DNA from: Salinimicrobium profundisediminis
GTDB taxonomy: Bacteria; Bacteroidota; Bacteroidia; Flavobacteriales; Flavobacteriaceae
Direction: 5' to 3'
NCBI RefSeq assembly: GCF_026241755.1
Contig: NZ_JAPJDA010000012.1
Span: forward strand, 11,695 to 75,694
DNA: 64,000 nt
Shown here: piece after piece, positions 14,953-64,000 of the stretch
Numbering within the stretch: the stretch's first letter is position 1
Layout of the letters: every line of letters begins with the position of its first letter
Notes under the pieces: generated by a model
What the model was told of the DNA's origin: nothing
The model's database searches: none
The model's input: the letters and a program-made list of their open reading frames with translations, nothing else
Made by a program: the position numbers and the translations under genes

Positions 14953-15666
14953 ATGTGTACGGTTACTATCCTGCCTTTAAAAGGCCATAATTCGTTTGTT
15001 CTTACTTCCAGTCGTGATGAGGCTCCGGGGAGGCAAACACTACCGCCAAAAACTTACGAGGTTGCAGGCTCAAAAATGGCATTTCCGAAAGATGTTTTGG
15101 CCGGGGGCACCTGGCTGGGAGTGAGTGATCGCAAACGTGCTAATTGTCTGCTGAATGGTGCCTTTAAAAAGCATGAAAGAAAACTGCCTTACGGCAAAAG
15201 CAGGGGATTAGTGGTAAAAGATCTTCTGGCTGCTGAAGATTTTACTGAAGCTGCGGAAGAATATGAGCTTTTTGAAGTCGAACCTTTCACCATTGTAGCA
15301 GCCGACTGGCAAAAAGCGCTCTTTTTTGCTGAATTTGTTTGGGATGGCACTAAAAAACACTATAAAAAGTTACCCCTGAAGCCTCACATCTGGTCCTCAA
15401 GTCCGCTTTATTCTGAAGAAATGAAGCAGCTGCGGGAAGAGTGGTTTTTAGAACTTCAACTTCAGCAGCAAGAGAATATTAATCCCGAAGCATTACTCAA
15501 TTTCCACTTTTCAGCAGGGAAGGGAGATAAGGAACAGGGCGTGATCATGGACCGGGGTTTTGTAAAGACCGTGAGCGTTTCTCAGATTATTGTTTCCGAA
15601 GGGCAAAAAAGTTTTTTCTATAAAGATCTCGCCACAGATGAGGTTTCAAAAATGCCATTTTTATAA
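14953..15666 (+). CDS. NRDE (TANGO2-like) family protein
   Basis: This is a 237-residue cytoplasmic protein beginning MCTVTILPL, with the conserved cysteine at position 2. The family-defining motif appears as TSSRDEAPGR around residues 19-28. The following GGTWLGVSD and NCLLNG segments are also typical of NRDE proteins. The family is linked to eukaryotic TANGO2, whose biochemical role is unsettled; heme or lipid handling has been proposed. I do not assign a substrate. The gene is divergent from pruA with a ~140-bp gap. Its last codons (VSKMPFL, stop) lie inside and beside a copy of the AAAAATGNCATTTTT palindrome, so the protein's C-terminus may have been rewritten by that element. Confidence 0.85.
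   Translation: MCTVTILPLKGHNSFVLTSSRDEAPGRQTLPPKTYEVAGSKMAFPKDVLAGGTWLGVSDRKRANCLLNGAFKKHERKLPYGKSRGLVVKDLLAAEDFTEAAEEYELFEVEPFTIVAADWQKALFFAEFVWDGTKKHYKKLPLKPHIWSSSPLYSEEMKQLREEWFLELQLQQQENINPEALLNFHFSAGKGDKEQGVIMDRGFVKTVSVSQIIVSEGQKSFFYKDLATDEVSKMPFL
15648..15662. repeat. Palindrome copy AAAAATGNCATTTTT (exact)
   Basis: Exact copy with N = C. It encodes the last residues of the NRDE protein and ends 1 nt before its stop codon. Confidence 0.9.
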
Positions 15667-15833
15667 GGTAATTTAAGTATGTGATAATTTGATAATTTGA
15701 AAATTTGAAAATTCCCCAGATACCCGGGAAGTAAATGTTGCTCTAAGCCGAGGAACTGGTAACAGCTAGCAAATTAACTGCGAAAGATATTATGGGTTCT
15801 AAAACTTTGAATCTTGAACCTTAGATGAGGTTT

Positions 15834-15958
15834 CAAAAATGCCATTTCAGAGAGGTAAGGTGTGGAAATTCCAATAATACAAGCACCAAATTCCAACAAT
15901 ATTTCATTAGTCTGCTTTTTGGATGGGGAAAAGATGAGGTTTCAAAAATGCCATTTTT
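15834..15958. repeat. Direct repeat B, copy 1 (palindrome-bounded)
   Basis: It contains AGAGGTAAGGTGTGGAAATT, CCAATAATACAAGCACCAAA and a TCTGCTTTTTGGAT segment. Copy 2 at 16725-16850 aligns along its whole length with scattered substitutions. Both ends carry the AAAAATGNCATTTTT motif. Confidence 0.85.
15944..15958. repeat. Palindrome copy AAAAATGNCATTTTT (exact)
   Basis: Exact copy with N = C and the extra flanking C...G pair. It forms the right edge of direct repeat B copy 1. Confidence 0.9.
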
Positions 15959-16028
15959 GGCTACCTTTAAATAACTATGACTTATTTGCAAATTCTGCAG
16001 CCTTTGAATCAGTCTTAAAAGTTGAAAA

Positions 16029-16697
16029 ATGAGAAAAATTTTCATTATTGTTTTAGCCGGTATTTTATGGAGTTGCGATGGTGACCCTATAGAAGCAGGC
16101 GTGGTAACCACTATAGAGGGAAGGATCTATGACCGGCAGAATGAACTTCCCTTTGAAAACCTCAAGATCAAAGTCGCTGAGTACAAAACGCATCAAAAAA
16201 GCATCTACATGCATACCGAATTTATCCAATGGATCGATTCTACCTATACAGACCAAAATGGCGACTATCTCTTAGAATTTGAAACTTCAGGCCGGGGGGA
16301 CCTTTACCAATTTCACGTTGAAAGCAGGCCCAATATGTGGGATTACAACAATGGCACCTTTGACATCCCTTATATTGGGAAAAACTCGAACATAGACCTG
16401 GGTCTTTTACATCTTTTTCCCGTAAAACTGGTGATTGAAATGAATGACATCGGGCATCTTCCAGTAACAGTAAATCCGCGGTTTTATCAGGACGTGGAGG
16501 ATATCAATACCGGCAGCGGAACGGTTGAAAGGACCATATTTGCTGATAAGAACAGCGACAATACCGTTTATTTCAGCAGGAGACTCACCCCCAATGATTA
16601 TGAAGGCTACACCGCCGTCATTCCGGCAACTCACACTACGGAATTGGCAAACTATAATCTCACTCTCAATAACTCAGATTTCGTTAAAAGAGAATAA
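16029..16697 (+). CDS. Small lipoprotein with carboxypeptidase-regulatory-like domain
   Basis: The 222-residue product starts MRKIFIIVLAGILWSCDGD, a signal peptide with a lipobox and cysteine at residue 16. Residues about 27-95 (TIEGRIYDRQNELPFENLKIKV ... TDQNGDYLLEFET) look like a transthyretin-like or CarboxypepD_reg beta-sandwich. The rest has no family I recognise. It is likely anchored in the outer membrane. It is single, on the plus strand, and flanked on both sides by copies of a ~125-bp direct repeat, which is unusual for a chromosomal gene in this phylum. Function is unknown. Confidence 0.75.
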   Translation: MRKIFIIVLAGILWSCDGDPIEAGVVTTIEGRIYDRQNELPFENLKIKVAEYKTHQKSIYMHTEFIQWIDSTYTDQNGDYLLEFETSGRGDLYQFHVESRPNMWDYNNGTFDIPYIGKNSNIDLGLLHLFPVKLVIEMNDIGHLPVTVNPRFYQDVEDINTGSGTVERTIFADKNSDNTVYFSRRLTPNDYEGYTAVIPATHTTELANYNLTLNNSDFVKRE

Positions 16698-16724
16698 TGA
16701 ATAACTAACCAAAGAAATACCTTC

Positions 16725-16850
16725 CAAAAATGCCATTTTAGAGAGGTAAGGCGTGGAAATTCCAATAATATAAGCACCAAATTTCAATAATATTACAGTG
16801 GTCTGCTTTTTGGATTGAGGAAAAGATGAGGTTTCAAAAATGATATTTTT
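16725..16850. repeat. Direct repeat B, copy 2 (palindrome-bounded)
   Basis: This is the second copy of the 125-bp unit at 15834-15958, 891 bp downstream and in the same orientation. Its left palindrome (16726) ends CATTTTA and its right one (16836) is AAAAATGATATTTTT, a single-base decay. It is followed by a TAAGGTGATTT...GTGATAATTTGA block that matches the block after the NRDE stop, then a TTTGAACGTTAAACCTTGAA stretch up to apaG. Confidence 0.85.
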
Positions 16851-16967
16851 ATAAGGTGATTTGAGGATGTGATAATTTGAAGATTTGAAAAAGTTCCAGA
16901 TACGCTAAAATAATGTAACTCCGAACGGAGTCGACGTAACCACAAACTTTGAACGTTAAACCTTGAA

Positions 16968-17354
16968 CTAGTTTAGCGCAAAAGGGGCACTGAGTTTAAA
17001 AGAGGGGATGGTGACCCTGAATTTCCTGGTGGAAGTAAAATTGATCATGCTGTAAAAACCGCTCATAGATCCAAATGGTGAGGTGAGCAGACATCCGCTT
17101 TTGTAGGTGTGGGATTCTCCGGGTTTTAGAACCGGTTTCTTTCCTATCACTCCTTCACCTTCCACAATTTCTGTGCGGTTAAGCGCATCTTTTATCTTCC
17201 AGAACCTGGAACTGAGTTGCACAGAATCTTTGCTTTGATTCTCAATAGTGATTTGATAGCCAAAGGCGAAGTGGACTCTATAGTTTTTATAGAAAGTCCC
17301 TTCAAAATTTGTTTCTATAGAGATTTTTATGCCTCTGGTAATTTGTTGAATCAT
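16968..17354 (-). CDS. apaG: ApaG/DUF525 family protein
   Basis: The 128-residue protein (start ATG 17354; an in-frame TTG at 17369 would overlap the upstream gene) is a small Ig-fold protein of the ApaG family. Its length is close to the ~125 residues of the Escherichia coli homologue. Family features visible are FAFGYQITIENQS, LSSRFWKI, GEGVIGKKPVLKPGESHTYKSG and GSMSGFYSM. ApaG is linked to Co2+/Mg2+ handling in Salmonella by genetics, but its direct activity is not known. It starts 1 nt after the stop of the DUF3667 gene, so the two are probably translated from one message together with the T9SS plug-like gene. Confidence 0.9.
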   Translation of the reverse strand: MIQQITRGIKISIETNFEGTFYKNYRVHFAFGYQITIENQSKDSVQLSSRFWKIKDALNRTEIVEGEGVIGKKPVLKPGESHTYKSGCLLTSPFGSMSGFYSMINFTSTRKFRVTIPSFKLSAPFALN

Positions 17355-17355
17355 G

Positions 17356-18438
17356 CTAGTAGATCGCAAATGAAGCCAGCACCGAAAATATGAATGCTAA
17401 TAAAGCTAAAGTAAAGAATATAATATTTATTATAATAAACTTTATCAACGTTTTAACTCTTCCCTGTCCGTAGAATTTTCTAAAAGCTTTATAGAGGTAA
17501 AAAGCGAAGATGAACATGGCAAGCGCGGTGGCAAAATTGCTGTTGAAGAGCGTATTAATGCCCACTGCTATTCCAAAAAGCACAAACCAGGTGGTTTGAT
17601 TGTGGAAGGTAAAGATGAGATGTTCCATGTATGTGAAAGGCCTCCTCAAATAAAGCAGCCAGATGAACAGCGCAAAAACCGGAAGGTAAAAGAAGATGAT
17701 GAACGGCAGCTTGCTGTAAAAATAACTCCAGAAAAGATTAGCATCTGAACCGAATATTTTTGAGTTCACGGTTTTCCTGTAAAACCATTGATTAAAGCGG
17801 GAATTTGAATAATTGAGGCTGTCTAAAGCAACTTTGGAATTTCTCATCCCGGTAGCTTCATAATGATCTGAAAATACCTGCCATTGCTTTATTCGGGCAT
17901 TTAAAAAGCTCATGGTGTCCAGGTCTTTTTCCGCAATATACTCTGGGGTTGAGATGCTGTCGTTGGCAGGAAGAAATACTTCTAAAGGCGGGTTTTCTAT
18001 ACCCTGGGCGGTTAAAATGGAATCAACTTCCTTTTGTTCTTCAGCACTGCCTTCCAGGTCGAAGTTAATGGGTGATTCAACTTCGTGAGTGACACTCCAA
18101 AGCAGGAAAAAAATAATGGAAGCGCTTAGGTAAAACCGGTAAGGATTGGCATAGCGCACCCTCTTTCCCTGAATGTAATCTTTTGAGATTTTTCCGGGTT
18201 TAAAAAGCAGGGCTCCCAGCGTTCTGTAGAATCGGGAATCGTAAGCAAAAATTCCGGCGAAAAATTCGTTGAAAAAATCGTTAAAAGCCAGCTTTTTGGT
18301 GCTGTTAAGCTGACTACAGTTTGGGCAAAACTCATCACTGATATCAAGAGGATGATGGCAGTTTAGGCATTCTGTGCTGCGGTACTTCAGTCTATGCCGC
18401 TCCTTGTATATCTTCGGTAAATTATGACCCTCGTTCAT
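17356..18438 (-). CDS. DUF3667 zinc-ribbon membrane protein
   Basis: The 360-residue protein has an N-terminal zinc ribbon (CLNCHHPLD...CPNCSQ, four cysteines in two CxxC pairs, residues about 24-41). It continues with FNDFFNEFFAGIFAYDSRFYRTLGALLFKPGKI and YIQGKRVRYANPYRFYLSASII, the signature of DUF3667. Around four hydrophobic segments follow, one near 105-115 and three in the last 130 residues. A soluble loop lies at about 120-225. The biochemical function of the family is unknown; it is common in Bacteroidota. It sits between the T9SS plug-like gene (19-nt gap) and apaG (1-nt gap) in a likely operon. Confidence 0.85.
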   Translation of the reverse strand: MNEGHNLPKIYKERHRLKYRSTECLNCHHPLDISDEFCPNCSQLNSTKKLAFNDFFNEFFAGIFAYDSRFYRTLGALLFKPGKISKDYIQGKRVRYANPYRFYLSASIIFFLLWSVTHEVESPINFDLEGSAEEQKEVDSILTAQGIENPPLEVFLPANDSISTPEYIAEKDLDTMSFLNARIKQWQVFSDHYEATGMRNSKVALDSLNYSNSRFNQWFYRKTVNSKIFGSDANLFWSYFYSKLPFIIFFYLPVFALFIWLLYLRRPFTYMEHLIFTFHNQTTWFVLFGIAVGINTLFNSNFATALAMFIFAFYLYKAFRKFYGQGRVKTLIKFIIINIIFFTLALLAFIFSVLASFAIY

Positions 18439-18457
18439 GAGAAACTATGCAGATAAC

Positions 18458-19708
18458 TTAATTGCTGATGTTTAATGAAGTAGCTGAGCCCATTCCAATA
18501 ACCCTGGTAAACCTTCCGCCGGGAGGCAGGTAATAGATAAGCACGGTATAATCGTTTTCGGTACTAACAAAATTTCCGCTTATAAAACCTTCATCAAGAA
18601 TGCCATCCTTCCGAAGAAATACATATTTGTAATCGTAGTATCCCTGTTTGAAGAGGCGTGCCGTTTCATAAGCGCCGGAGTTAGGGTTGTATTCGAGTTT
18701 TGTGCTTTCATCAAGCACGAAATTATTAAACTCGCCGTAAAGATGTACTTCACCTCCTTCAAAAGGCTCTGGGGCAGCGAGGGCAAAATGGGTCCACACG
18801 TAGCCAGCCTCAATGTCGTCTTCAAGCGCTTGAAATTTTCTCACCAAAAATTTTCCGTTGATATCGGGGTTATAGGTGTAGGGTTCAAATGCCCTTATTG
18901 CGTCTGGGAAGAGGTAATGATGATATAGATCCTGGAGGTCAATGTACTGTATTTTTACGGTTGCCGCCCGCAGATCTTTGCTGTCAAAACTAAGGAATTC
19001 GTTACCGGCCCAGAAGGAAGTGAGGTCGTTGTATTTATAAATAAGGCTGGTGCCAATGTGGTACTGTGGGCGTATGTTGTAGATCGCGGTTTTTAAATTG
19101 TTGTTTTGAAGGATAACCGCCCAGGTTGATTGTTCCGGGTTGCGAATAATGAATTCGGGCGAGTCTACTTCAAAATTCACCACGTGTTTTGTTTGAATAT
19201 TTCTCACTTCCGAAGATTTTCGCACGGCTACCTGCACACGGGTAAGAGGTTCGTAAACAATGAATTTTCGGGAGAATACCAGTTCTTTATTATCGTTAAA
19301 GATCTTTATTAAATAATTACCACTAACTTTAAGCGAACGGGTATTGTCATTGGGGATGCGCAGCTCGTAGTGAGAGTAAAGCTGAAGCGTATTGAAAGAA
19401 TTCTCGTAGTTAGTAATGCGAACGTTATCAAAGCCTTCTAAATACTCATTTTTAAGTAATTCTGAAGGTGTCCAGTCGTAATTAAAATGCTCAATAGTAT
19501 AATAGTAATTGGCCTCATCGCCTACCAGGTCATCAAAAGTGAGCAACAGAGGTTCTCCCAGTTTAATGACAGGCACTCCGCTATACTCGTTAGAGCCAGT
19601 AAAGATTACGGTTCTTATAAAATTTGGAGGAGGATTTTCTACCGTCTGTGCGGCAGCAGAAAAAATTCCCAGGAATAAAAAGAAAAAGAAGGATAAGTTT
19701 AACTTCAT
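18458..19708 (-). CDS. DUF5103 protein, type IX secretion system plug-like
   Basis: The 416-residue protein has a signal peptide (MKLNLSFFFFLFLGIFSAAAQ) and no lipobox. The body (FIRTVIFTGSNEYSGVPVIKLGEPLLLTFDDL, YYYTIEHFNYDWTPSELLKNEYLEGF) belongs to the DUF5103 family. A DUF5103 protein was seen as the Plug that closes the periplasmic side of the SprA translocon in Flavobacterium johnsoniae. A role in gating T9SS is therefore likely and fits the T9SS cargo in this window. The C-terminal part (APEPFEGGEVHLYGEFNNF ... NDYTVLIYYLPPGGR) looks like an added beta-domain. It is the first gene of a run with the DUF3667 and apaG genes and is divergent from nqrA. Confidence 0.85.
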   Translation of the reverse strand: MKLNLSFFFFLFLGIFSAAAQTVENPPPNFIRTVIFTGSNEYSGVPVIKLGEPLLLTFDDLVGDEANYYYTIEHFNYDWTPSELLKNEYLEGFDNVRITNYENSFNTLQLYSHYELRIPNDNTRSLKVSGNYLIKIFNDNKELVFSRKFIVYEPLTRVQVAVRKSSEVRNIQTKHVVNFEVDSPEFIIRNPEQSTWAVILQNNNLKTAIYNIRPQYHIGTSLIYKYNDLTSFWAGNEFLSFDSKDLRAATVKIQYIDLQDLYHHYLFPDAIRAFEPYTYNPDINGKFLVRKFQALEDDIEAGYVWTHFALAAPEPFEGGEVHLYGEFNNFVLDESTKLEYNPNSGAYETARLFKQGYYDYKYVFLRKDGILDEGFISGNFVSTENDYTVLIYYLPPGGRFTRVIGMGSATSLNISN

Positions 19709-19826
19709 GCACCAAAAATAAATTTAAATATACTCAAAAACTGATTAGCATCATTATTTGTTCACTTTAACAAAATCTAAGGGGAATTTATTCATTTTAA
19801 ATTGGGATTTGTGGGTCGGAAATGAG

Positions 19827-19834
19827 TAAATTTG
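19827..19834 (+). promoter_or_regulatory. Candidate -7 box for the nqr operon
   Basis: TAAATTTG matches the Bacteroidota -7 consensus TAnnTTTG and lies 34 nt before the nqrA ATG. The best upstream TTG (19802-19804) is 22 nt away, slightly longer than usual. Confidence 0.45.
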
Positions 19835-19867
19835 CCCGATTTTAAATGAAATTTAACACTTCGTCCT

Positions 19868-21214: not shown

Positions 21215-21224
21215 ACTGTTTACT

Positions 21225-22409: not shown

Positions 22410-22411
22410 TT

Positions 22412-23155: not shown

Positions 23156-23157
23156 TT

Positions 23158-23916: not shown

Positions 23917-23940
23917 TCTATAACTTCAAAAAAACCGACT

Positions 23941-24555: not shown

Positions 24556-24565
24556 AGAGAAAGCA

Positions 24566-25855: not shown

Positions 25856-25876
25856 CCTGAAGAAGTTAAAATATTT

Positions 25877-25906
25877 AAAAACAGCTGCCTTTTGGTGGCT
25901 GTTTTT
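25877..25906 (+). terminator. Intrinsic terminator after nqrF
   Basis: AAAAACAGCTGCC pairs with GGTGGCTGTTTTT across a TTTT loop, with two G-T wobbles. It lies 22 nt past the nqrF stop. The two genes behind it (118-residue protein, apbE) therefore need read-through or their own promoter. Confidence 0.8.
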
Positions 25907-25950
25907 GATTTGGGCACATTATATTAAGCTGAATTGACTAATTTTGAGCT

Positions 25951-26307
25951 ATGTCACAATTAACCGATCAGGAACTGCATAATCTTGCAATGAACATTGT
26001 AGGTAAAGATCTGGAAGAACAGGGATATGAATTTCTAGGGGTCAATAGTGATTTTAAAAAAGACCCTCAGTTCGTGGCTTTAAGGGATAAAAAGTTGCAC
26101 TTTGTTGTAGTGCGGGCAATAGAATATCCACACGATCCGCGAGATATTGATATGATTTTTTTGGAAACTGTAAAAGAGCAGGCTTTAAAATTTGATGCCC
26201 GTACTTTTTATGCCGGCGTGGGGCTCGCAAATTCCAAAGACTATGAATTGCCCGTAATGAGTTCAGAAGATTACGTAGTTAATTACCCCGGATTAAAAGA
26301 AATCTAA
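25951..26307 (+). CDS. 118-residue conserved protein between nqrF and apbE, unknown function
   Basis: This is a small soluble protein with no signal peptide, membrane helix or cofactor motif. Features are an acidic N-terminus (LTDQELHNLAMNIVGKDLEEQGYEFLGVNSDFKKDPQFVA), an alpha/beta pattern (KLHFVVVRAIEYPHDPRDID) and a FYAGVGLANSKDYELPV segment. Similar genes in related genomes have, to my memory, sometimes been labelled as an Nqr subunit. Nothing in the sequence supports an electron-transfer role. Its stop codon lies at the edge of a palindrome that also holds the apbE start codon 2 nt downstream. A role in Nqr maturation is possible from position alone. Confidence 0.75.
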   Translation: MSQLTDQELHNLAMNIVGKDLEEQGYEFLGVNSDFKKDPQFVALRDKKLHFVVVRAIEYPHDPRDIDMIFLETVKEQALKFDARTFYAGVGLANSKDYELPVMSSEDYVVNYPGLKEI

Positions 26308-26320
26308 AAATGACATTTTT
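26306..26320. repeat. Palindrome copy AAAAATGNCATTTTT (exact) spanning a stop and a start codon
   Basis: Exact copy with N = A. Its left end overlaps the TAA (26305-26307) of the 118-residue gene and its ATG (26310-26312) is the apbE start codon. Confidence 0.9.
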
Positions 26321-27326: not shown

Positions 27327-27500
27327 TCTAGTAGTGAGTATAGAGTATTGAGAACATTAGGTTGGTATCTTCTGATATGGTTCTCCAGGTAATTCCCAGC
27401 AAAATTCTCTGGCTATTTACCTTCTGATTCACTTTATCTCCCATGAGAAATTTCTAATCCCTAATCCCCAATTCCCAATCCCCAATTAACCAATAACCAA

Positions 27501-33191: not shown

Positions 33192-34805
33192 CTATTCAGT
33201 TAATTTCGTGTAGATCTGTTCATCGAGATCGTACACGTCATTTAAAATAACAGTTTCATTCCCGGCCCGCCAGGCAGTCCAGTAAAAATGATGGACCTGG
33301 ATGGGCCGGTTCACTTTTACAGTAGTTGTTTCCCCGGTTTCAATGATTTCATGGATCCTTTCCTTTTGCCAGTCATCCTGGTTCTCTACCACGTAAGCAG
33401 CCAAATCAACAGCATCTTCTACCCTCACACAGCCCGAACTTTCTGCGCGCTGGGTTTGGCTAAACAGGCTTTTTGCAGGGGTATCGTGTAAATAAATAAG
33501 ATATTTATTCGGGTACATGATCTTTACCCGCCCCAGCGGATTCGCAGGTCCGGCCCTTTGAGTGATGTTGTAGTTTAGCGCTTCATCGCTGCTCCAGTCC
33601 ACGCTTGATGGGTCTACACGTTCACCACTACGGGTGGTAATGGTCATGTTGTTATTGCTTAAATAAGAGCGGTTTGCTGCCATTTTTGGAAGTACATCCT
33701 GCGACTTGATCGTTGGCGGAACCGTCCAGGTAGGATTGATCACCAGGTGATCTATAGTATCCGAAAAAATAGGGGTGGGGCGTTCTTTAGCTCCGGCGAT
33801 CACGTTATGTTTCCTTATGGTGTCGCCATCTTTGATTACTGCCAGTTTAAAATTGGGAATATTGATCAAAATGTAATGCTCACCCAAATCTCTCGGGTAC
33901 CAGCGCCATCTTTCTAGATTTGCCAGTATTTGATTGTAAACTTCTTGTGGTCCTTTATTAAGTTCATCAATGGTGGCATCTCCTATAATTCCGTCAGTTT
34001 GAATACTTTTCTTCTGCTGAAATTTTCTCACTGCATCTACCAAAGCTTCAGAATAGGTTTGCCCAATGCCTGAAGTATCAGCTTTAAAGACCCCAAGCTC
34101 CTGAAGCCTTTGTATAATAGCAGGAATTCGGGGATCTGTCTGCCCCGGTTCAATAATTTCTCCTCGTGAGATCTTGTTTATTGCAGTTTCCTGAGTCTTT
34201 TGTTCCTTATAATCAGCAAGGCTTTTTTTGAGCCCCTGGTAAACCTGGTGAGAAGGCTTCAGGTCTTCCAGGATTGCGCTTACTTCCTTCTGTTCAACAG
34301 CATCTTTCAAAAGCTTTCCGAAGTCTTTTTCTTTCCGGCTAATTCCCCAGAACTCGTGCAGCTTTTCAGGATCAAGTTTTCCGTAGTATAAGTGGCGGGC
34401 ATAGGTGAGAAAAGCATCCGAAAGCAGCAGGTCAAGGCGTGCGGCCTGTTGTGAACTCAGGTCGGCAGTTGATAAAAGTGAATCAATCTCTTTTCCGTGG
34501 TAATCTTTAAAATTGAGGCCTTCTTCATCGGCTTCCTGCAGGCTGTTATACAGGGAATGAATGGTTTCTCCATCGCGCCAAAGAGATTTGTAATCCCTCC
34601 CGCTGTATACCTCTTCTAAAAGTCCCCCCTCAAAAATGTCATTTTTGGAAGAAATTTCTGTCTTGATGCCATCGGGTGAGGCTTCTGCAATTTTTTCTGA
34701 AGCTTTATCAGATGAAGCCCTGTCTGCCGGATTGTTTTTGTCGCCGGTACAGGCACCAAGGCTTAAAAATAAGATCGATAAGGGTAGTAAAAAGCTCTTT
34801 TTCAT
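33192..34805 (-). CDS. YcbB/LdtD-like L,D-transpeptidase lipoprotein
   Basis: The 537-residue lipoprotein (LLPLSILFLSLGACTG, cysteine at residue 19) has an N-terminal helical scaffold (about 60-215), a peptidoglycan-binding domain near 225-285 (VRKFQQKKSIQTDGIIGDATIDELN) and a YkuD catalytic domain near 305-495. HYILINIPNFKLAVI, NPTWTVPPTI, IYLHDTPAKSLF and SSGCVRVEDAVDLA, with the nucleophile Cys, are all present. It forms 3-3 cross-links in peptidoglycan in the family. It is the last gene after clpP and two GNAT genes, with a 4-nt overlap to the second. An exact AAAAATGNCATTTTT palindrome lies inside its coding sequence, near residue 55. Confidence 0.92.
   Translation of the reverse strand: MKKSFLLPLSILFLSLGACTGDKNNPADRASSDKASEKIAEASPDGIKTEISSKNDIFEGGLLEEVYSGRDYKSLWRDGETIHSLYNSLQEADEEGLNFKDYHGKEIDSLLSTADLSSQQAARLDLLLSDAFLTYARHLYYGKLDPEKLHEFWGISRKEKDFGKLLKDAVEQKEVSAILEDLKPSHQVYQGLKKSLADYKEQKTQETAINKISRGEIIEPGQTDPRIPAIIQRLQELGVFKADTSGIGQTYSEALVDAVRKFQQKKSIQTDGIIGDATIDELNKGPQEVYNQILANLERWRWYPRDLGEHYILINIPNFKLAVIKDGDTIRKHNVIAGAKERPTPIFSDTIDHLVINPTWTVPPTIKSQDVLPKMAANRSYLSNNNMTITTRSGERVDPSSVDWSSDEALNYNITQRAGPANPLGRVKIMYPNKYLIYLHDTPAKSLFSQTQRAESSGCVRVEDAVDLAAYVVENQDDWQKERIHEIIETGETTTVKVNRPIQVHHFYWTAWRAGNETVILNDVYDLDEQIYTKLTE
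34632..34646. repeat. Palindrome copy AAAAATGNCATTTTT (exact) inside a coding region
   Basis: Exact copy with N = T and the extra C...G pair, in the non-conserved N-terminal linker of the L,D-transpeptidase, where it encodes KNDIFE. Confidence 0.9.
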
Positions 34806-35245
34806 AATTCAGTAGGTGTTTTGTACATCACAATATGCATGCACACGTTTGGGATCATAAAGGCAGGGCCTGTAGTTGAATATCCATACTTTTTATAGAA
34901 TTCCACGGCAGTTTCGCGCGCATTGAACCACAGTAAAGTATTCGGATTTCTACTTTTCAAGATTTCTTCCCCCTTATGAAGCAATTTTTCTCCCAGTTTC
35001 TGGTTGCGGTGAGAAGGCAGTACGGCCATTCCTCTAAGCTGGTACTGTATTGGGGTTTCAAAAATGGCATTTTTACGGGCTACAAAAGTGGCAACCGCCA
35101 CTACTTGTTCTTCCTCAAAAAACCCCAGGTGAATGGTGTCTTCTTCGAGATCGCCCTCAAAAAAGCACTCTTTTAAAGGTCGGCCGGGGCGTAGTACTTC
35201 CTGGCGGACCTTATAAGTTTCTTCGGCTGATATTTGGCGGATCAT
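34802..35245 (-). CDS. GNAT family N-acetyltransferase
   Basis: The 147-residue protein has a GNAT fold with the acetyl-CoA pyrophosphate loop in LRGMAVLPSHRNQKLGEKLLHKG and a C-terminal EFYKKYGYSTTG. The substrate is unknown. It overlaps the L,D-transpeptidase gene by 4 nt and directly abuts the short GNAT gene upstream. A palindrome copy lies in its middle and encodes KNAIFE, between two core strands. Confidence 0.88.
   Translation of the reverse strand: MIRQISAEETYKVRQEVLRPGRPLKECFFEGDLEEDTIHLGFFEEEQVVAVATFVARKNAIFETPIQYQLRGMAVLPSHRNQKLGEKLLHKGEEILKSRNPNTLLWFNARETAVEFYKKYGYSTTGPAFMIPNVCMHIVMYKTPTEL
35060..35074. repeat. Palindrome copy AAAAATGNCATTTTT (exact) inside a coding region
   Basis: Exact copy with N = G, inside the GNAT gene at 34802-35245. 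Confidence 0.9.
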
Positions 35246-37056: not shown

Positions 37057-37878
37057 ATGAAGATAAAAAATCTAGCCGGCGTTCCCTTTGAAAATGTGCT
37101 TTCCTGCTTTCTTTCTGCTTTTGAAGGTTATTTTATAAAACTGCCCGAAGATCCTAACTACTGGTGGGAGCGATTCACCATTGCCCGTGTAAACTGGGAG
37201 CTCTCCTTTGGAATGTTTGATGAAGATGAGCTGGTGGGCTATATTATAAATTGTGTGGATCAACACCGGGAGTCACTTACAGCATATAACACCGGCACAG
37301 GAGTGCTAGCTAATTACCGCGGAAGGGCAATCGTAGATCAACTTTATGAACACGCTATTCCTGTTTTAAAGGTTCACGGAGTTGAAAAATGTCTGCTGGA
37401 AGTGATCTGTGAGAATGAAAGGGCTTTAAAAGTGTATAACCGCATAGGCTTCGAGATTACCCGACAACTCCGCAGCTTTACCGGATCTCTTCCTGAAACT
37501 TCTTCGGAAATTACCCTTCAAAAATGTCATTTTTCGCAGGTAATTCAGAGTGGGCTTTATGAGGAAGCGCTTTATTCCTGGGACCATACGGCCAAAGCTG
37601 TAGCATTGATGCAAAACCGGGTTCAAACCTGGTGTTTAGGAGATCCCGACTCTCCTGAAGCTTACCTGGTGATCGATAATGGCGGGAATATCATTCAATT
37701 GTTTTCAAAAAGAGATAATTACCCCGAGCTTCTGACTGCTGCAGGCTGGTTAGCAAAAGAAGTTAAGCTGAAAAATGTAAGTGCCGCAAGAGAGAGCCTG
37801 ATAAATACCCTTCAAAAATGGCATTTTTCGAATCCCGTAAACCAGTACGAGATGGAGATGGAAATCTCTTCCTTCTGA
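37057..37878 (+). CDS. GNAT family N-acetyltransferase, two-domain
   Basis: The 273-residue protein has a GNAT domain at about 1-145 (NTGTGVLANYRGRAIVDQLYEHAIPVLK as the acetyl-CoA loop; ICENERALKVYNRIGFEI). A second GNAT-like half follows (LVIDNGGNIIQLFSKRDNYPELLTAAGWLAK). Its substrate is unknown. Two exact palindrome copies (37520, 37814) lie in this one gene, 294 bp apart, and both encode LQK(C/W)HFS. They are therefore in the same reading frame at similar distances from the ends of the second half. Confidence 0.85.
   Translation: MKIKNLAGVPFENVLSCFLSAFEGYFIKLPEDPNYWWERFTIARVNWELSFGMFDEDELVGYIINCVDQHRESLTAYNTGTGVLANYRGRAIVDQLYEHAIPVLKVHGVEKCLLEVICENERALKVYNRIGFEITRQLRSFTGSLPETSSEITLQKCHFSQVIQSGLYEEALYSWDHTAKAVALMQNRVQTWCLGDPDSPEAYLVIDNGGNIIQLFSKRDNYPELLTAAGWLAKEVKLKNVSAARESLINTLQKWHFSNPVNQYEMEMEISSF
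37520..37534. repeat. Palindrome copy AAAAATGNCATTTTT (exact) inside a coding region
   Basis: Exact copy with N = T, coding for LQKCHFS in the GNAT gene at 37057-37878. Confidence 0.9.
37814..37828. repeat. Palindrome copy AAAAATGNCATTTTT (exact) inside a coding region
   Basis: Exact copy with N = G, coding for LQKWHFS near the C-terminus of the same GNAT protein. Confidence 0.9.
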
Positions 37879-41180: not shown

Positions 41181-41296
41181 GAGTTAAGAAAAAACACCCA
41201 GTAAAATTGACATTTTTGAGAGGTGAGTTTTAATATTTTTCTTTAATTATTACGCATTTGATGTAATTATGCCTGAATTTGGTCGTTATTTATAAT

Positions 41297-42097: not shown

Positions 42098-42467
42098 GGA
42101 AGGTTATTTCTAAAAAAGAATGAAGTTCTGTCTTATCATCAAAAATAACAGTTTCTAAAGTTCCATTGAGCTTCCTTAAAAGACGAAAAGCTCTTCCTGA
42201 AGTTGAGACGATCGGAGTTAGAAAAGGTCTTAAAAGCTTTCTGATTTAAAAATTTTCCACACTAGTGCAACTTATAGCAGTAGTATATCTGGAAGACCTT
42301 CAGCAGGTGCTCAAAAATGACTTTTTTGAGAGCCTGTTCCTTGATATAATTGCTGAAGTATAATTTTAATTCCCTGCACTTTCTTTAATAGTGAATGATG
42401 AGGCACCGACCTGTCATATGAATGTTTTTACATTTTATTTCTCGCACTTTCCCTCATTTTATTTAAG

Positions 42468-49503: not shown

Positions 49504-49526
49504 GATGGTAGGTTAGTTTAGATGCG

Positions 49527-49564: not shown

Positions 49565-49701
49565 ACACTTTACTGAGATAAGAGTATTCAAAAGGATAAT
49601 CCTTAAACATAAAAAGAAGAGCTACGCGCTTTTAAATTTAAAAGCAGTTAAGAATCCTGACATAGGATAGGATGTATTTTTAATTTTAAATCTTGTAAAG
49701 A

Positions 49702-56621: not shown

Positions 56622-56684
56622 ATAATTCTAATGATTAGAAAAAGAATATTTATTTAAAAACATAAGTTTAGAAATCTACTCTAC

Positions 56685-56729
56685 TAGGCACTATTAACCG
56701 GGTTTTTATAATCCGGTTGATTTTGCCTA
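56685..56729 (+). other. Two-tier hairpin in the gap between PL9 and PL1-CE8
   Basis: An outer pair TAGGCA (56685-56690) and TGCCTA (56724-56729) encloses an inner pair AACCGG (56696-56701) and CCGGTT (56713-56718). There is no T run directly after it, so it may protect or process the message instead of ending it. The rest of this 203-bp gap shows no gene. Confidence 0.5.
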
Positions 56730-56824
56730 ATTAAATTTATGGTAGAAGGAGTCTTGAAGACGGAACGAAAGCCTTTAAGATCCAATATTATTAGAAAACT
56801 TTTAAAGAGAAAAAAATAAAAAAT

Positions 56825-59080
56825 ATGCGCAATTGCCTGGAGAAAATAAAATTTTTAATTGCAGCTATACTGGTAGGCTTGCCCTTACAGGCACAGCAAC
56901 TGGCTTTTCCTTCAGCAGAGGGCTTTGGAAGGTATGCAACCGGTGGCCGGGGCGGCATTGTTTACACCGTTACAAACCTAAATGATGATGGAGAAGGAAG
57001 TCTTAGAAAAGGCATTTTAAAGGATGGTCCTCGTACTATTGTTTTCGCAGTTTCAGGCACTATAGAACTCGAAAGGCCATTAGATATCAACAAAGGCAAT
57101 CTTACCATTGCCGGGCAGACTGCGCCGGGAGATGGCATTACCATTAAGGGCTATCCTGTGGCAGTAAAAGATGATAATGTCATCATTAGATACATGCGCT
57201 TTAGGATGGGCGACAAACAAGGCATTGCCGATGATTCCTTTAAAGGACGGGGTGTCAAAAATGTCATTTTAGACCACTGTTCTGTAAGCTGGGCCACAGA
57301 TGAAAATGCCTCTTTCTACCAGAATAAGGACTTTACGATGCAGTGGTGTATCATTTCTGAAGCGCTTAACAGTTCTGTGCATTCCAAAGGAGATCACGGT
57401 TACGGCGGAATCTGGGGTGGCGAAAATGTCTCTTTTCATCATAATTTAATTGCCAGCAACCACAGCAGAAACCCTCGTTTCAGTGGCTCAAAAACTACTG
57501 AAAATCTTGATGGGGAATTTGTGGACTTCAGAAATAATGTGATCTACAACTGGGAAGATAACAGCATTTACGGCGGTGAAAACGGCCGTTATAATATTGT
57601 AAATAACTATTTCAAACCGGGTCCGGCTACCGAAGATGAGGAGAGGATCGTAGAGCCGTATGATCCCTACGGAAAGTTCTATGTAAATGGAAATTATGTT
57701 GAAGGTTCAGAAAAGGTGACAGAGAACAACTGGAATGGCGGAGTGCAGGGAGATGATCCTGAAGCAGCACGTGTCAATGATCCTTTTGATTATAATAATA
57801 ATGTTGACACCCAAAACGCACGTACAGCCTTTGACCTGGTGATGAAAAAGGCAGGTGCCAGTTTAAAAAGAGATGCGGTTGATATCAGGATTATCAACGA
57901 AACCAGAAGCGGAAAAGCCACCTACGGCAACGGAATCATTGACTCACAGGAACAGGTGGGCGGCTGGCCAAAATTAAGAAGTGGAACAGCACCCAAAGAT
58001 ACAGATGAAGATGGAATGCCCGATGCCTGGGAAAAAGCCAAGGGTATTGACGCTACTAAAGAAAATGCCAATGGGCATGATCTCGATAACGGCTATACAA
58101 ACCTCGAAGTTTATTTAAATGAACTTGTTGATAAAGAAACCGAAACTGCAGCCGTTAATTCCGCTACTTATGATTTTATAGTTTCAGCCGATGATTCCGG
58201 GGATTTTAAGACTGTGCAGCAAGCAATAAATGCGGTGCCCGATTTTAGAAAAGCACGGACAAGAATTTTTATTAAATCAGGGGTTTATAAAGAGAAGTTA
58301 GTACTTCCTGCTTCAAAAACTAACGTCACTTTTATAGGAGAAGACAAAGTTTCCACCATACTTACTTACGATGATTTTGCGCAAAAGCTTAATGTTTTTG
58401 GAGAGGAAGTAGGAACTACCGGTTCCACTTCCTTCTTTGTCTTTGGAGATGGTTTTCACGCTACCAATATCACCTTTAAAAACAGCGCCGGACCTAAAGG
58501 ACAGGCTGTGGTAGTAAGAGTGGATGCTGATAAAGCCATTTTTGACAACTGTAAATTTTTAGGTTTCCAGGATACACTTTATCCGCACGGCAGGAACAGT
58601 AGGCAATACTACCGCGACTGCTATATTGAAGGTACGACAGATTTCATTTTTGGGTGGTCTACCGCAGTGTTTGAGAATTGCGAGATCTACTCCAAAGAAG
58701 GCGGCCATTACATCACTGCGGCTTCAACTGAAAAGGGTGCGAAGTATGGTTTTGTTTTTCTGAATTGCACGCTCACCGGTGATGCACCAAAAGGAACTGT
58801 TTACCTGGGACGGCCCTGGAGACCTTTTGCTCAGACAGTTTTTATAAACACAAAGATGGGTGAGCATATTAAAAAAGAAGGCTGGCATAACTGGAATAAG
58901 CCACATGCCGAAGAAACGGTTCTTTATGCAGAATACAACAATTCAGGTCCGGGATGGGCACCTTCAGAAAGAGTTGAATGGGCGGTACTACTTACCTCAG
59001 AATTATCAAAAAAATACACTGTAGAACACATTTTTGGAGGGACAGACGCCTGGAACCCTTCAGAAGTTTTAAACTTTTAA
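56825..59080 (+). CDS. Bifunctional PL1 pectate lyase - CE8 pectinesterase
   Basis: The 751-residue protein has a signal peptide (FLIAAILVGLPLQAQQ) and no lipobox or T9SS domain, which points to the periplasm. The PL1 domain covers about 24-330: AFPSAEGFGRYATGGRGG, GSLRKGILKDGPRTIVF, ILDHCSVSWATDENAS and HHNLIASNHSRNPRFSG with its catalytic-type Arg. A linker with an EF-hand-like DTDEDGMPDAWE (about 392) follows. The CE8 domain is about 448-751, with GFQDTLYPHG, GTTDFIFGWSTAVF and YLGRPWRPFA. Removal of methyl groups and beta-elimination would happen in one polypeptide. An AAAAATGTCATTTT palindrome (57257-57270) lies in the PL1 part. Confidence 0.92.
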   Translation: MRNCLEKIKFLIAAILVGLPLQAQQLAFPSAEGFGRYATGGRGGIVYTVTNLNDDGEGSLRKGILKDGPRTIVFAVSGTIELERPLDINKGNLTIAGQTAPGDGITIKGYPVAVKDDNVIIRYMRFRMGDKQGIADDSFKGRGVKNVILDHCSVSWATDENASFYQNKDFTMQWCIISEALNSSVHSKGDHGYGGIWGGENVSFHHNLIASNHSRNPRFSGSKTTENLDGEFVDFRNNVIYNWEDNSIYGGENGRYNIVNNYFKPGPATEDEERIVEPYDPYGKFYVNGNYVEGSEKVTENNWNGGVQGDDPEAARVNDPFDYNNNVDTQNARTAFDLVMKKAGASLKRDAVDIRIINETRSGKATYGNGIIDSQEQVGGWPKLRSGTAPKDTDEDGMPDAWEKAKGIDATKENANGHDLDNGYTNLEVYLNELVDKETETAAVNSATYDFIVSADDSGDFKTVQQAINAVPDFRKARTRIFIKSGVYKEKLVLPASKTNVTFIGEDKVSTILTYDDFAQKLNVFGEEVGTTGSTSFFVFGDGFHATNITFKNSAGPKGQAVVVRVDADKAIFDNCKFLGFQDTLYPHGRNSRQYYRDCYIEGTTDFIFGWSTAVFENCEIYSKEGGHYITAASTEKGAKYGFVFLNCTLTGDAPKGTVYLGRPWRPFAQTVFINTKMGEHIKKEGWHNWNKPHAEETVLYAEYNNSGPGWAPSERVEWAVLLTSELSKKYTVEHIFGGTDAWNPSEVLNF

Positions 59081-59093
59081 ATTCCATAGAAAA

Positions 59094-60317: not shown

Positions 60318-60319
60318 TC

Positions 60320-61339
60320 ATGAAGAATACTAATATGAAGTCACTAACAAAATATTTAATCCTTTCACTCATTATTGCAGCAACAGCCTGCAAAAACAAG
60401 GATGACAAGAAGCAGCGTTTAATCCCTGAAGACACCAAAACTTCTCAGCCTCAAACTTATGCCGAGATCTCGGTGAAAAAGGACGGACAATGGGAAGGTC
60501 GAGAATACAGGGGCGGCACTTTCGAAAATGTGCAGGAACTTACCCTTCCCCCGGAACATACAGATCACTCTTACTACATTAGGTATGAAGGTCCGGGCTG
60601 GGAGAATGCACAAGTGGGATATAGATTATATCTGGACTGGAGAAACGCTATAGATATCTTCGGAAAGAAAACTGACACTATGGTGCTGCCACAAGTGGGT
60701 CAGGACGGTTTCGATTCTTACCACGAAGAAGCTGCCTGGGGGATGGATATCCTAAAAGCCGGGAAATCTCTGGGAATTGGGAGCTACGGCCGCTTTATGA
60801 ATGATACTGTAGCACACTTCAGAAACGTAGGTAACACTCATGCGCAGGTTTCTAATACTGAAGGTTCTTCAGAAGTTAAGATCGAATATTCAGATTGGGC
60901 AACCGGAACAGATACGGTGGATCTTACTACCACCCTCACTATTTTTCCTGAAGGAAGATATACAAAAGCAACTTTAGATCTTTCTGAACCTCTGGAAGGC
61001 TTAACTACAGGAATCGTAAAATTTGAAAATATTGAACTGCTTCAGAAGCAAGGTGAAGGAGGAGAGTGGACATACATCGCTACCTATGGAAACCAGACGC
61101 TTGTGAATGATCAGGATAAACTGGGGATGGCGCTATTCTATAAGAAAGCTGATGTAAAAGAAGTCAAAGAAGGTCCGCATGATCACCTCGTAATCTTCAA
61201 TGAAACCGCAGAACCTGTAACTTATTATTTCCTTGCAGCCTGGGAGCAGGAACCGAATGGAATCACCACAAAAGAAGGATTTTTAGCTGAAATTGATGAG
61301 CATTTAAACAATCTTGAGGAATCCGGACAATTAGAATAA
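60320..61339 (+). CDS. DUF4861 lipoprotein
   Basis: The 339-residue lipoprotein (LILSLIIAATACKNKDD) has the DUF4861 plan: WEGREYRGGTFENVQELTLPPEHTDHSYYIRYEGPGWENAQVGYRLYLDWRNAIDIFGK, then AWGMDILKAGKSLGIGSYG, and beta-rich repeats to the end. DUF4861 genes are common in pectin and other uronate loci, but I cannot state an established activity. The many conserved aromatic, His and Asp residues suggest an active or sugar-binding cleft. It starts 2 nt after GH105 and ends 1 nt before GH43, so it is fully embedded among pectin enzymes. Confidence 0.8.
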   Translation: MKNTNMKSLTKYLILSLIIAATACKNKDDKKQRLIPEDTKTSQPQTYAEISVKKDGQWEGREYRGGTFENVQELTLPPEHTDHSYYIRYEGPGWENAQVGYRLYLDWRNAIDIFGKKTDTMVLPQVGQDGFDSYHEEAAWGMDILKAGKSLGIGSYGRFMNDTVAHFRNVGNTHAQVSNTEGSSEVKIEYSDWATGTDTVDLTTTLTIFPEGRYTKATLDLSEPLEGLTTGIVKFENIELLQKQGEGGEWTYIATYGNQTLVNDQDKLGMALFYKKADVKEVKEGPHDHLVIFNETAEPVTYYFLAAWEQEPNGITTKEGFLAEIDEHLNNLEESGQLE

Positions 61340-61340
61340 C

Positions 61341-62981
61341 ATGAAAAGACTTAAAAATTTAGCAGCAGTTTTGGTTCTTTTAGTTTTTGGAGGGATAACT
61401 ATGAATGCTCAAAACAGCGAAAATTTTAAGTCAGATGTATGGGTAGCCGATCAGGGAGATGGTACTTATAAAAATCCCATTCTGCATGCAGATTATTCCG
61501 ATCCCGATGTAGTGAGAGTGGGCAGCGATTTTTATATGACATCCTCGTCTTTCAATTCGGCACCGGCCTTGCCAATTCTACATTCTAAAGATCTGGTGAA
61601 CTGGAAACTTATTGGCCATGCTTTGGATCGCCAGGTGCCCGACGAACATTTTAGCAAGCCCCAGCATGGAAATGGTGTGTGGGCGCCGGCTTTTCGATAT
61701 CATGAAGGGGAATATTACATCTACTGGGGAGATCCCGACTTCGGCATTTACATGGTTAAAACCAAAGATCCTGCGGGGGAATGGGAAGAACCTGTTCTTG
61801 TGGAAGCAGGTAAAGGGCTTATTGATCCTGCACCACTTTGGGACGAAGATGGAAAAGCCTATTTATCGCATGCCTTTGCGGGCAGCCGTGCCGGAATAAA
61901 GAGTATTCTCGTGGTCAAACCACTGAATTGGGAAGGAACAAAAACTACCGGCGCCGGAAAGATCGTTTTTGATGGGCATGAAGATCATCCTACAGTCGAA
62001 GGAACCAAGTTTTACAAAAAGGACGGCTATTACTACATTTTTGCACCTGCCGGAGGAGTTTCTACAGGATGGCAGTTGATTCTGCGGTCTAAAAACCCTT
62101 ACGGTCCTTACGAGGAGCATGTTTCTTTGGCTCAGGGAAATACCGATATCAACGGGCCTCACCAGGGAGCATGGGTCGAGCTGGAGAACGGCGAGGACTG
62201 GTTTATCCATTTTCAGGATAAAGAAGCCTACGGTCGTATAGTCCACCTACAGCCTATGACCTGGAAGAATGGCTGGCCTACAATGGGAGAGGATAAAGAC
62301 GGAGACGGTACAGGAGAACCTGTAATGTCTTTCAGGAAACCCAATGTGGGTAAGATTTATCCTATTCAAACTCCCAAAGATTCAGATGAATTTAGTGGAA
62401 ATGATATAGGTCTTCAATGGCAGTGGCAGGCAAATCCTAACGCGACCTGGGCCTTTGCCAATCCTGCAAAAGATCAGTTACGCTTTTATACGCAATTACT
62501 TCCTGAGGCTGCAAAAAACCTGTGGGATTCCCCGGGCCTGTTGTTGCAAAAATTTCCGGCTGAAGAATTTACTTCCACTACCAAACTAACCTTTAATCCA
62601 AATAAGAACCTTGAAAATGAAAAAGCAGGGCTAATCGTGATGGGAAGATCTTATGCCTATGTGGCTTTGGAAAGTAGAAAAGACGGAATCTATGTTGTTT
62701 ATGCTGAAGCTGAAAAGGCCGATGAAGGTAATCTAGAGCAAAAGGAACAGCTAAAAAAGCTTTCTGCCAACACGGCCTTTCTGAGAGTTGAAGTGGATAA
62801 AAAGGCGCAGTGTACTTTCAGTTATAGTGAAGACGGAAAAAAATACATTGAGATAGATGAAGATTTCTCCGCAAGAGAAGGAAAATGGGTAGGTGCGAAA
62901 ATCGGCATTTTTGCCACCAAAGAGCAGAAAACCAATGATTCCGGTTATGCCGATTTCGATTGGTTCAGGTTTTCAAAATAA
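61341..62981 (+). CDS. GH43 family glycoside hydrolase with C-terminal beta-sandwich
   Basis: The 546-residue exported protein (AVLVLLVFGGITMNAQ) has a five-bladed GH43 propeller. The three acidic residues are in HADYSDPDVVRVGSDFYM (base), GLIDPAPLWDEDGKAYL (pKa Asp) and HPTVEGTKFYKKDGYYYIFA (acid Glu). A second beta-sandwich (about 345-546, DEFSGNDIGLQWQWQANPN...YADFDWFRF) is the usual C-terminal domain of this type. Expected activity is alpha-L-arabinofuranosidase or beta-xylosidase, which would trim pectin side chains in the periplasm. The subfamily is not certain. Confidence 0.92.
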   Translation: MKRLKNLAAVLVLLVFGGITMNAQNSENFKSDVWVADQGDGTYKNPILHADYSDPDVVRVGSDFYMTSSSFNSAPALPILHSKDLVNWKLIGHALDRQVPDEHFSKPQHGNGVWAPAFRYHEGEYYIYWGDPDFGIYMVKTKDPAGEWEEPVLVEAGKGLIDPAPLWDEDGKAYLSHAFAGSRAGIKSILVVKPLNWEGTKTTGAGKIVFDGHEDHPTVEGTKFYKKDGYYYIFAPAGGVSTGWQLILRSKNPYGPYEEHVSLAQGNTDINGPHQGAWVELENGEDWFIHFQDKEAYGRIVHLQPMTWKNGWPTMGEDKDGDGTGEPVMSFRKPNVGKIYPIQTPKDSDEFSGNDIGLQWQWQANPNATWAFANPAKDQLRFYTQLLPEAAKNLWDSPGLLLQKFPAEEFTSTTKLTFNPNKNLENEKAGLIVMGRSYAYVALESRKDGIYVVYAEAEKADEGNLEQKEQLKKLSANTAFLRVEVDKKAQCTFSYSEDGKKYIEIDEDFSAREGKWVGAKIGIFATKEQKTNDSGYADFDWFRFSK

Positions 62982-63066
62982 GCTTCAGTATAAACCCCAA
63001 AAAGGGTATTTTGACAATGAATTGTTTTTCAGAAAAAATAATGCAACGATTAGTGTCCCCTGATAA

Positions 63067-63095
63067 ACCTCTTAAAAATGGCATTTTTGAGAGGT
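63067..63095. repeat. Extended palindrome copy with ACCTCT/AGAGGT arms
   Basis: An exact AAAAATGNCATTTTT core (63074-63088, N = G) is lengthened by ACCTCT (63067-63072) on the left and AGAGGT (63090-63095) on the right. One T/G mismatch lies between arms and core. It sits in the 196-bp gap between GH43 and the CE12 gene, which holds no gene. Confidence 0.9.
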
Positions 63096-63177
63096 ATGAT
63101 TTCAGTTAGGGGCAACTAAGATCCGGAAGCAAAAATTGTTTCCGGAAATTTCGGCAACCGTTCAATAATTAGATAGA

Positions 63178-63993
63178 ATGATCATAAAACCTTATTATTT
63201 AATACTCTTACTGCTTTTTCTGCTGCCCGGCCAACAGGAAGAGATGGTGAAAATTTACCTCATCGGCGACTCCACCATGGCCGACTATAGCAACAACTAT
63301 GATCCCGGTAAAGATTATATGAAAACCAGGTATCCTCTTACGGGCTGGGGGCAGGTGTTTCAGGAAAAAATGACTCCTGAGCACTTGCAGGATTTAAATC
63401 ACATCCTAAAAACAGATACTGTAGTGGTTGATGACCGTGCTCGTGGAGGTCGCAGTACCCGTACATTCTTTGAAGAAGGCAGATGGGCTTCGGTTTATGA
63501 GGATCTTAAAAAAGGCGATTTAGTATTGATGCAATTCGGGCACAATGATGCCGCTGAAAATAAGCCGAAGCGTTACGTAACTGTTGAAGGCTATAAGGAG
63601 TACCTGCGCCTGTTTGTTCACCAGACCCGTCAAAAAGGGGGAATTCCCGTGATTCTGACTCCCGTAAACCGCAATTACCCGTGGGAAGACGGCAAGCTCC
63701 AAAATGTACATGGGGAGTATTACTCGGCAGCTGTTGAAGTGGCAGAAGAGCTCAAGGTCTATCTTATCGATCTCACTCAAAGGTCTATGGATCATTTTAC
63801 TGAAAAAGGTAAAGATTACGTCACGGCTAAATATTTTATGAACTTTGGTCCAGGCTTATACGAAGCTTATCCTGAAGGCAGCAGTGACAATACGCATTTT
63901 CAACCCGAAGGAGCCAGGGCTGTGGCACAGTTGGTCTACGAGGGGATGGTAGACTTTCAGAAACAAAAGCAAATAAAAGAGTCTCAAAAATGA
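63178..63993 (+). CDS. CE12 rhamnogalacturonan acetylesterase (SGNH hydrolase)
   Basis: The 271-residue protein has a short hydrophobic N-terminus (about 5-18) and an SGNH fold. The nucleophile Ser is in IYLIGDSTMADYS. Oxyanion residues are in DRARGGRSTRTF (Gly) and LMQFGHNDAAE (Asn), and the Asp/His pair is in SDNTHFQPEGA. Such enzymes remove acetyl groups from galacturonate in rhamnogalacturonan. It lacks a clear cleavage site after the hydrophobic segment, so it may stay anchored. Its stop codon lies inside a palindrome copy that reaches the right edge of the window. Confidence 0.9.
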   Translation: MIIKPYYLILLLLFLLPGQQEEMVKIYLIGDSTMADYSNNYDPGKDYMKTRYPLTGWGQVFQEKMTPEHLQDLNHILKTDTVVVDDRARGGRSTRTFFEEGRWASVYEDLKKGDLVLMQFGHNDAAENKPKRYVTVEGYKEYLRLFVHQTRQKGGIPVILTPVNRNYPWEDGKLQNVHGEYYSAAVEVAEELKVYLIDLTQRSMDHFTEKGKDYVTAKYFMNFGPGLYEAYPEGSSDNTHFQPEGARAVAQLVYEGMVDFQKQKQIKESQK

Positions 63994-64000
63994 CATTTTT
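63986..64000. repeat. Palindrome copy AAAAATGNCATTTTT (exact) at the right edge
   Basis: Exact copy with N = A, ending on the last base. The TGA at 63991-63993 inside it is the stop of the CE12 gene. A longer arm (CTC before the core) suggests it continues as GAG beyond the window. Confidence 0.9.

Follow-up and report, generated by a model that had tools for sequence, protein, structure and literature searches.

Signals for DNA uptake have been described from the Pasteurellaceae and the Neisseriaceae (PMC12616744). In the uptake signal sequence (USS) of the Pasteurellaceae, a 9-nt core is followed downstream by two AT-rich regions that are discontinuous and less conserved, the whole being up to 32 nt long; the USS often forms inverted repeats that serve as terminators, and its dialects track phylogeny (PMC12616744). 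The AT tracts are thought to aid the kinking of DNA for entry (PMC7811141). Riemerella columbina, which is assigned to the Flavobacteriaceae, was reported to prefer its own DNA (PMC7965970), and transformation of R. anatipestifer requires ComEC, DprA, ComF and RecA together with four proteins for which no counterparts in transformation are known (PMC8459023). The open-licence literature that we searched, by title or abstract opening, describes neither a DNA-uptake signal for the Bacteroidota nor a palindrome or repeat of Salinimicrobium. Here we report on a 64-kb stretch of DNA from Salinimicrobium profundisediminis (contig NZ_JAPJDA010000012.1; "the window" refers to this whole stretch), in which a palindrome with 14 fixed bases and a free centre base, AAAAATGNCATTTTT, recurs in many places. 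The word was followed through the source genome (G000), eleven relatives within Salinimicrobium (G001 to G011) and genomes of other genera of the family.

In Salinimicrobium, a genus of the Bacteroidota, the word probably serves as a DNA-uptake signal with the layout of the USS. This reading is based on its observed restriction to the genus, its enrichment, its direction, its change by substitution, its conservation and its association with an intact comEC gene. From these we infer competence of the species, a receptor, an uptake bias and a drive, which would act together in the following way. Competent cells would bind the word where it occurs in double-stranded DNA from their own kind, and word-bearing DNA would be drawn in by the ComEC-dependent route. 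Since fragments with the word would be preferentially taken up and recombined, the word would accumulate over generations by point substitution (molecular drive), both within and between genes. The signal would be directional and dispersed, composed of TCAAAAATG, N-C, ATTTTT, about 8 bases and TTTTT, and at its strongest it would take the form of the palindrome. Since the first T-tract is nearly the reverse complement of the A-tract in the core, the best copies would be palindromes readable in both directions.

All nine exact copies that the initial annotation had listed are present in the window, whereas 100 dinucleotide shuffles held 0.02 copies on average and none of them reached nine. The near copies named there are likewise real, five of them with one mismatch (16726, 16836, 41203, 42313 and 57257) and one, at 15835, with two; seven additional copies with two mismatches were found at 243, 516, 789, 1062, 1335, 15072 and 62898. 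The genome-wide count that had been suggested as a check came out far above the reversed control and the composition model, with 296 copies in the 4.04 Mb of G000 (101 contigs) against a single copy of the reversed pattern. In 442 kb of this genome the word occurs 45 times exactly and 47 times with one mismatch, whereas 20 scrambled palindromes of the same letters had no exact copy and a mean of 0.65 copies with one mismatch. Among the sampled genomes of the family the word is restricted to Salinimicrobium: the relatives G001 to G011 contain, in this order, 0, 14, 4, 108, 104, 49, 108, 93, 246, 113 and 60 exact copies, and the 393 genomes of other genera (397 were sampled from the family) contain 0 to 4 each. 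No comparable palindrome was seen in 200 kb of G024, a genome of another genus. In a midpoint-rooted tree of the genus, built from a single 1.3-kb stretch, G001 and G003 stand outside the rest, and G000 and G009, which are highest in copies, are sisters. In viral contigs, 21 stretches were found with a single copy of the word each.

Within the palindrome lies a directional unit: the core TCAAAAATG is followed by two T-tracts, the second of which stands at +25 to +29 and is one-sided in non-palindromic copies. The core, which is itself non-palindromic, was counted 334 times on both strands of 1.24 Mb from G000 and G009 (palindromes counted twice), whereas 60 scrambled versions of it averaged 15 occurrences and never exceeded 43. 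Ranked by z-score, it leads the 9-mers in samples of G000 and G005 and is fourth in G009, behind TTCCGAAG-type words. While 156 of the 334 occurrences lie within near-perfect palindromes, the other 178 are without a near-perfect second arm. In these one-armed cases the frequency of T is 0.44-0.63 at +25 to +29, and at least three T are found at +25 to +28 in 86 of the 178 (background 9.1%, p about 1e-41), whereas a mirrored upstream A-tract is present in 16-18 of them, which equals the background. A profile trained on G000 and G009, TCAAAAATG-N-CATTTTT-GA-N6-TTTTT, gave 1069 matches above 13 bits against 42 in Markov-2 sequence of equal length, a palindrome being scored in both directions here and in the profile counts below. 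The gapped word TCAAAAATG-N16-TTTT was counted 177 times in G000, 146 times in G009, 33-96 times in each of G004-G008, G010 and G011, 21 times in G002, 9 times in G003 and 3 times in G001, and 0-7 times in 28 genomes of other genera. A directional layout of a core with two downstream AT tracts is therefore present in the profile (G000, G009) and, by the gapped word, in the genus. The initial annotation had missed this unit; the recognition by a protein that it proposed is still likely, although the nucleoid or segregation factors it had in mind fit less well than DNA uptake.

Conservation of the word was followed between G000 and G009 (one contig of 3.51 Mb), two species that are about 81-88% identical. 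Of the 45 own copies, 28 could be aligned, the other 17 not being alignable to the G009 stretches used: 19 are identical in the 14 fixed bases, six have one change, two have two changes and one is gapped. Control windows within 1.5 kb were identical in 19.7% of 79,524 cases and AT-rich controls in 18.4% of 5,463 (binomial p 4e-8), and 5 of the 19 identical pairs have different bases at the free centre. In the reverse comparison, which took those 20 of the 55 G009 copies that are well inside an alignment, 19 were identical in G000 and one had one change. The non-palindromic units are conserved as well, with 11 of 15 unchanged in G009 against 29% of controls (p 0.0005). Around conserved copies the core is kept while the flanks diverge. 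With genes called by a longest-ORF rule, coding copies occupy all three frames (frame 0 in 25 of 37) and their adjoining residues are unrelated, so that the word is a signal at the level of DNA, as was initially proposed; one of them, at C3 45893, lies within what we take to be the N-box of a histidine kinase. The further argument that copies occur on both strands carries no weight, since the word is a palindrome. The word is dispersed in coding DNA, conserved and altered by substitution in place, as would be expected of an uptake signal.

These comparisons also bear on the idea, put forward in the initial annotation, of a mobile or selfish short palindrome, that is, a repetitive extragenic palindrome (REP) with a RAYT transposase or a Rickettsia palindromic element (RPE). 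The copies are indeed numerous and palindromic, and a local duplication near 15.6-16.9 kb of the window holds several of them, but the retention of the core between diverging flanks speaks against such an element. No gap of the word's length was found at four coding sites of the window in the relatives within the genus (rows 61-88% identical, the lowest poorly aligned), only 1 of the 28 alignments between G000 and G009 was gapped, and a search for the Y1/RAYT transposase (PF01797, Y1_Tnp) in G004 gave no match despite the 108 copies of that genome. These results do not support a tiny mobile palindrome, and we regard any mobile element of the REP or RPE type as extremely improbable.

As to the uptake machinery, represented here by ComEC (PF03772), the protein is intact in the ten motif-carrying genomes G000, G002 and G004-G011 (195-211 bits, open frames of 648-690 aa), a remnant in G003 and below the cut-off in the incomplete G001. 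In G003 (99% complete, 4 exact copies) only a stretch of 31.8 bits with four stops is left. By tblastn its comEC appears as five fragments in three frames over 988 bp without N, against a gene of 2.0 kb in G000, while each of the two genes beside comEC was matched by one stretch that spans most of it (49% and 64% identical; outer genes mostly 68-89%). The gene order near comEC is conserved in the stretches compared. G003 has an excess of weak matches to the profile, with 500 per Mb above a score of 8 (228 expected) and 306 per Mb above a score of 10 (117 expected), as a decaying signal might leave; the excess is smaller in G024 of another genus, with 406 (313 expected) and 167 per Mb (131 expected), respectively. 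The comEC gene of G000 (C4:52385-54400) carries an exact copy of the word near its 5' end, at C4:52462, which has two mismatches in G009.

A second dispersed palindrome, CTTCNGAAG (weakly TNCTTCNGAAGNA), has 377-906 copies in 11 of the 12 genomes of the genus (906 in G000), 77 copies in G001 (control 70) and 848 copies in G022 of another genus. In G003 it is as frequent as elsewhere in the genus (799 copies), so that this genome has undergone no general loss of dispersed words. This has to be considered for a further explanation, according to which the word would be a palindrome of the type of highly iterated palindrome 1 (HIP1), made and maintained through the modification or repair of DNA. 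This would agree with a palindrome that is dispersed in and between genes and alters by substitution, and whose single deviations are most frequent at the outermost base, as in HIP1 (PMC4390886). However, the word exceeds HIP1 in length and is directional, with a T-tract at some distance, and it is scarce where comEC is broken, whereas CTTCNGAAG is not. We therefore consider a HIP1-type origin quite improbable.

Several points weigh against an uptake signal. We know of no report of competence in Salinimicrobium, although no search was aimed at such reports. The link between comEC and the word depends on one clear loss event, that of G003, and the highest scores do not differ in frequency between G003 and G024, either above 16 (22 per Mb each) or above 20. 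G001 has no exact copy and a ComEC match of 19 bits, below the cut-off; this genome carries little weight, since it is 74% complete. G002 has an intact, though divergent, ComEC (52.6% identical to that of G000) and yet contains 14 exact copies. The listed top 9-mers of G006 (120 kb) and G002 (480 kb) do not include the core TCAAAAATG, and when the profile was re-trained on G002, G006, G005/G007 and G003 it drifted towards plain A/T tracts and gave no definable dialect. Many strong copies are palindromic, whereas the papers on the USS describe a non-palindromic signal. Finally, plain k-mer counts in Riemerella and F. johnsoniae gave only A-rich words, whose role was left open (PMC7965970).

In G002, 8 of the 14 exact copies are situated on two integron-like contigs and 2 more have the same flanks, while weaker matches are enriched (158 per Mb above a score of 16 against 7 expected); this pattern may reflect a weaker drive or a shifted word. 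The contigs G002:C15 and G002:C8 carry an array of small open reading frames (ORFs) with two types of attC-like repeats containing AAAAATGNC[AT]TTTTT, along with a HigB-family gene, helix-turn-helix genes and an IS110-family transposase. A search for the integron integrase TIGR02249 across the genomes of the genus gave nothing above the cut-off. An uptake signal might be given a fuller form, which is slightly less likely than not: the word would be an independently evolved signal for the uptake of self DNA, in which the tripartite layout of the Haemophilus USS is folded into a two-way palindrome; transformation drive would keep it and loss of comEC would lead to its decay; and the integron-like cassettes of one species, which carry the word in repeats resembling recombination sites, could be flagged for uptake.

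Chromosome organisation was considered as another function. The initial annotation had suggested a site for a nucleoid or segregation protein, which finds little support: 83 A/T-centred copies (of 246) mapped on the G009 chromosome are evenly spread (chi-square p 0.54), and gene numbers do not track the copy number, either for HU (2-3 matches) or for ParB (1, except in G001, where none was found). More specifically, the word might be bound by a dimeric protein that organises the chromosome and is specific to the genus, comparable to Noc, SlmA or MatP, and the T-tracts would then provide its outer contacts. This would agree with the N-centred palindrome, with the flanks of coding copies, which behave as independent half-sites, and with the conservation of the word within genes. 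We nevertheless judge it unlikely, given the map without regional bias, the enrichment of single half-sites with a one-sided T-tract, the HU and ParB numbers that do not follow the copy number, and the association with comEC, which it leaves unexplained. The sites matS, Noc and SlmA are palindromic chromosomal protein sites that are concentrated in or excluded from regions of the chromosome; the Salinimicrobium word is like them in being palindromic, but its spread is even.

Position relative to genes raises the question of a regulatory or terminator element, either a transcription-factor site or an intrinsic terminator word. Among 100 copies pooled from G000 and G009, which include orthologous pairs and are thus not independent (two such pairs are among the nine long-stem copies below), 54 are intergenic, against 11% of the sequence called intergenic by a longest-ORF rule, and 46 are coding. 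The flank consensus is common to both groups. Pairing between the left and right flanks was 0.463 in the 46 coding copies against 0.498 for shuffled halves, that is, without covariation, and 0.648 against 0.560 in the 54 intergenic copies. The intergenic excess is due to a few copies with long stems. They make up 6 of the 12 copies between convergent genes against 3 of the 39 others (Fisher p 0.003), the latter comprising 3 of 35 in co-directional and 0 of 4 in divergent gene pairs; eight of the nine lie 17-63 bases past a stop codon and the ninth at 99. Some copies between convergent genes look like bidirectional terminators built on the word. Since the coding flanks do not covary, the hairpin was rejected as the general signal, although the variable centre and fixed arms had been thought to favour it. 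The intergenic excess and the terminator-like stems in half of the convergent copies would suit a regulatory or terminator element; the 46 coding copies, the scarcity of copies between divergent genes (4 of 51 against 22% expected, p 0.011) and the lack of a stem of at least six extra pairs in 42 of 51 intergenic copies make it a highly doubtful explanation for the word as a whole.

The copies in the window are as follows, with the strand where one is assigned:
243-257, plus strand: directional near copy within the first repeat of a set of five (273 bp each), the remaining four at 516, 789, 1062 and 1335
15072-15086, plus strand: directional near copy, TCAAAAATGGCATTTCC with a second T-tract, within the TANGO2-family gene
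15648-15662: exact palindromic copy at the extreme 3' end of the TANGO2-family gene (14953-15666)
15835-15849, plus strand: near copy TCAAAAATGCCATTTCA, two mismatches
15944-15958: exact copy, intergenic
16726-16740: near copy, one mismatch, intergenic
16836-16850: near copy, one mismatch, intergenic
26306-26320: exact copy spanning the junction of two ORFs, the second being an ApbE-family gene; unchanged in G009
34632-34646: exact copy within a YkuD L,D-transpeptidase gene; exact in G009, G006 and G011, gap-free partial matches in others
35060-35074: exact copy within a GNAT-family gene; unchanged in G009
37520-37534: exact copy within a second GNAT-family gene; 14 fixed bases kept in G009 with a different centre base
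37814-37828: exact copy within the same second GNAT-family gene; exact in G006, one mismatch each in G009 and G011
41203-41217, minus strand: near copy; the minus-strand unit scores higher, with a downstream T-tract
42313-42327: near copy, one mismatch
57257-57271: near copy, one mismatch
63074-63088: exact copy, intergenic, with a stem 7 bp longer
63986-64000: exact copy spanning the stop codon of a GDSL-lipase-family gene

In the 273-bp repeats (positions 1-1600 of the window) a putative minus-strand frame over the near copy would give GNDIFES. The local duplication comprises 15820-15965 and 16710-16850 (129 bp, 90% identical) and has two near or exact copies per unit, 109-110 bp apart. Another palindrome, GACCCC-NNN-GGGGTC, was found in 11 copies in 442 kb of G000 with 0.00 expected, and probably belongs to another family of repeats or terminators.

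If the word is an uptake signal, the genus would constitute a natural test of the drive model, since it includes a species with a broken comEC and almost no signal. Moreover, as competence in the Flavobacteriaceae relies on proteins that have no known relatives (PMC8459023), a defined signal could provide a handle on the receptor. HIP1 of the cyanobacteria (GCGATCGC) is likewise a highly repeated, dispersed palindrome (PMC4390886), but it differs in being symmetric and 8 bp long, and it is linked to methyltransferases. The DNA uptake sequence (DUS) of the Neisseriaceae is similar in being lineage-specific, dispersed and used in terminators (PMC12616744), whereas it runs without interruption over at most about 13 nt and the Salinimicrobium word is discontinuous. 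With the USS the word shares a 9-nt core, two discontinuous downstream AT tracts, a total of about 30 nt and many dispersed copies (PMC12616744, PMC7811141). Inverted pairs of the USS are used in terminators (PMC12616744), and a comparable use of the word is predicted from structure and position. It differs from the USS in its core, which is TCAAAAATG and not AAGTGCGGT or ACAAGCGGT, in its many strong palindromic copies and in belonging to another phylum. An unrelated case of the same layout in another phylum would point to a mechanical origin of the layout, in the way that stiff DNA is pulled through the outer membrane, rather than to ancestry.

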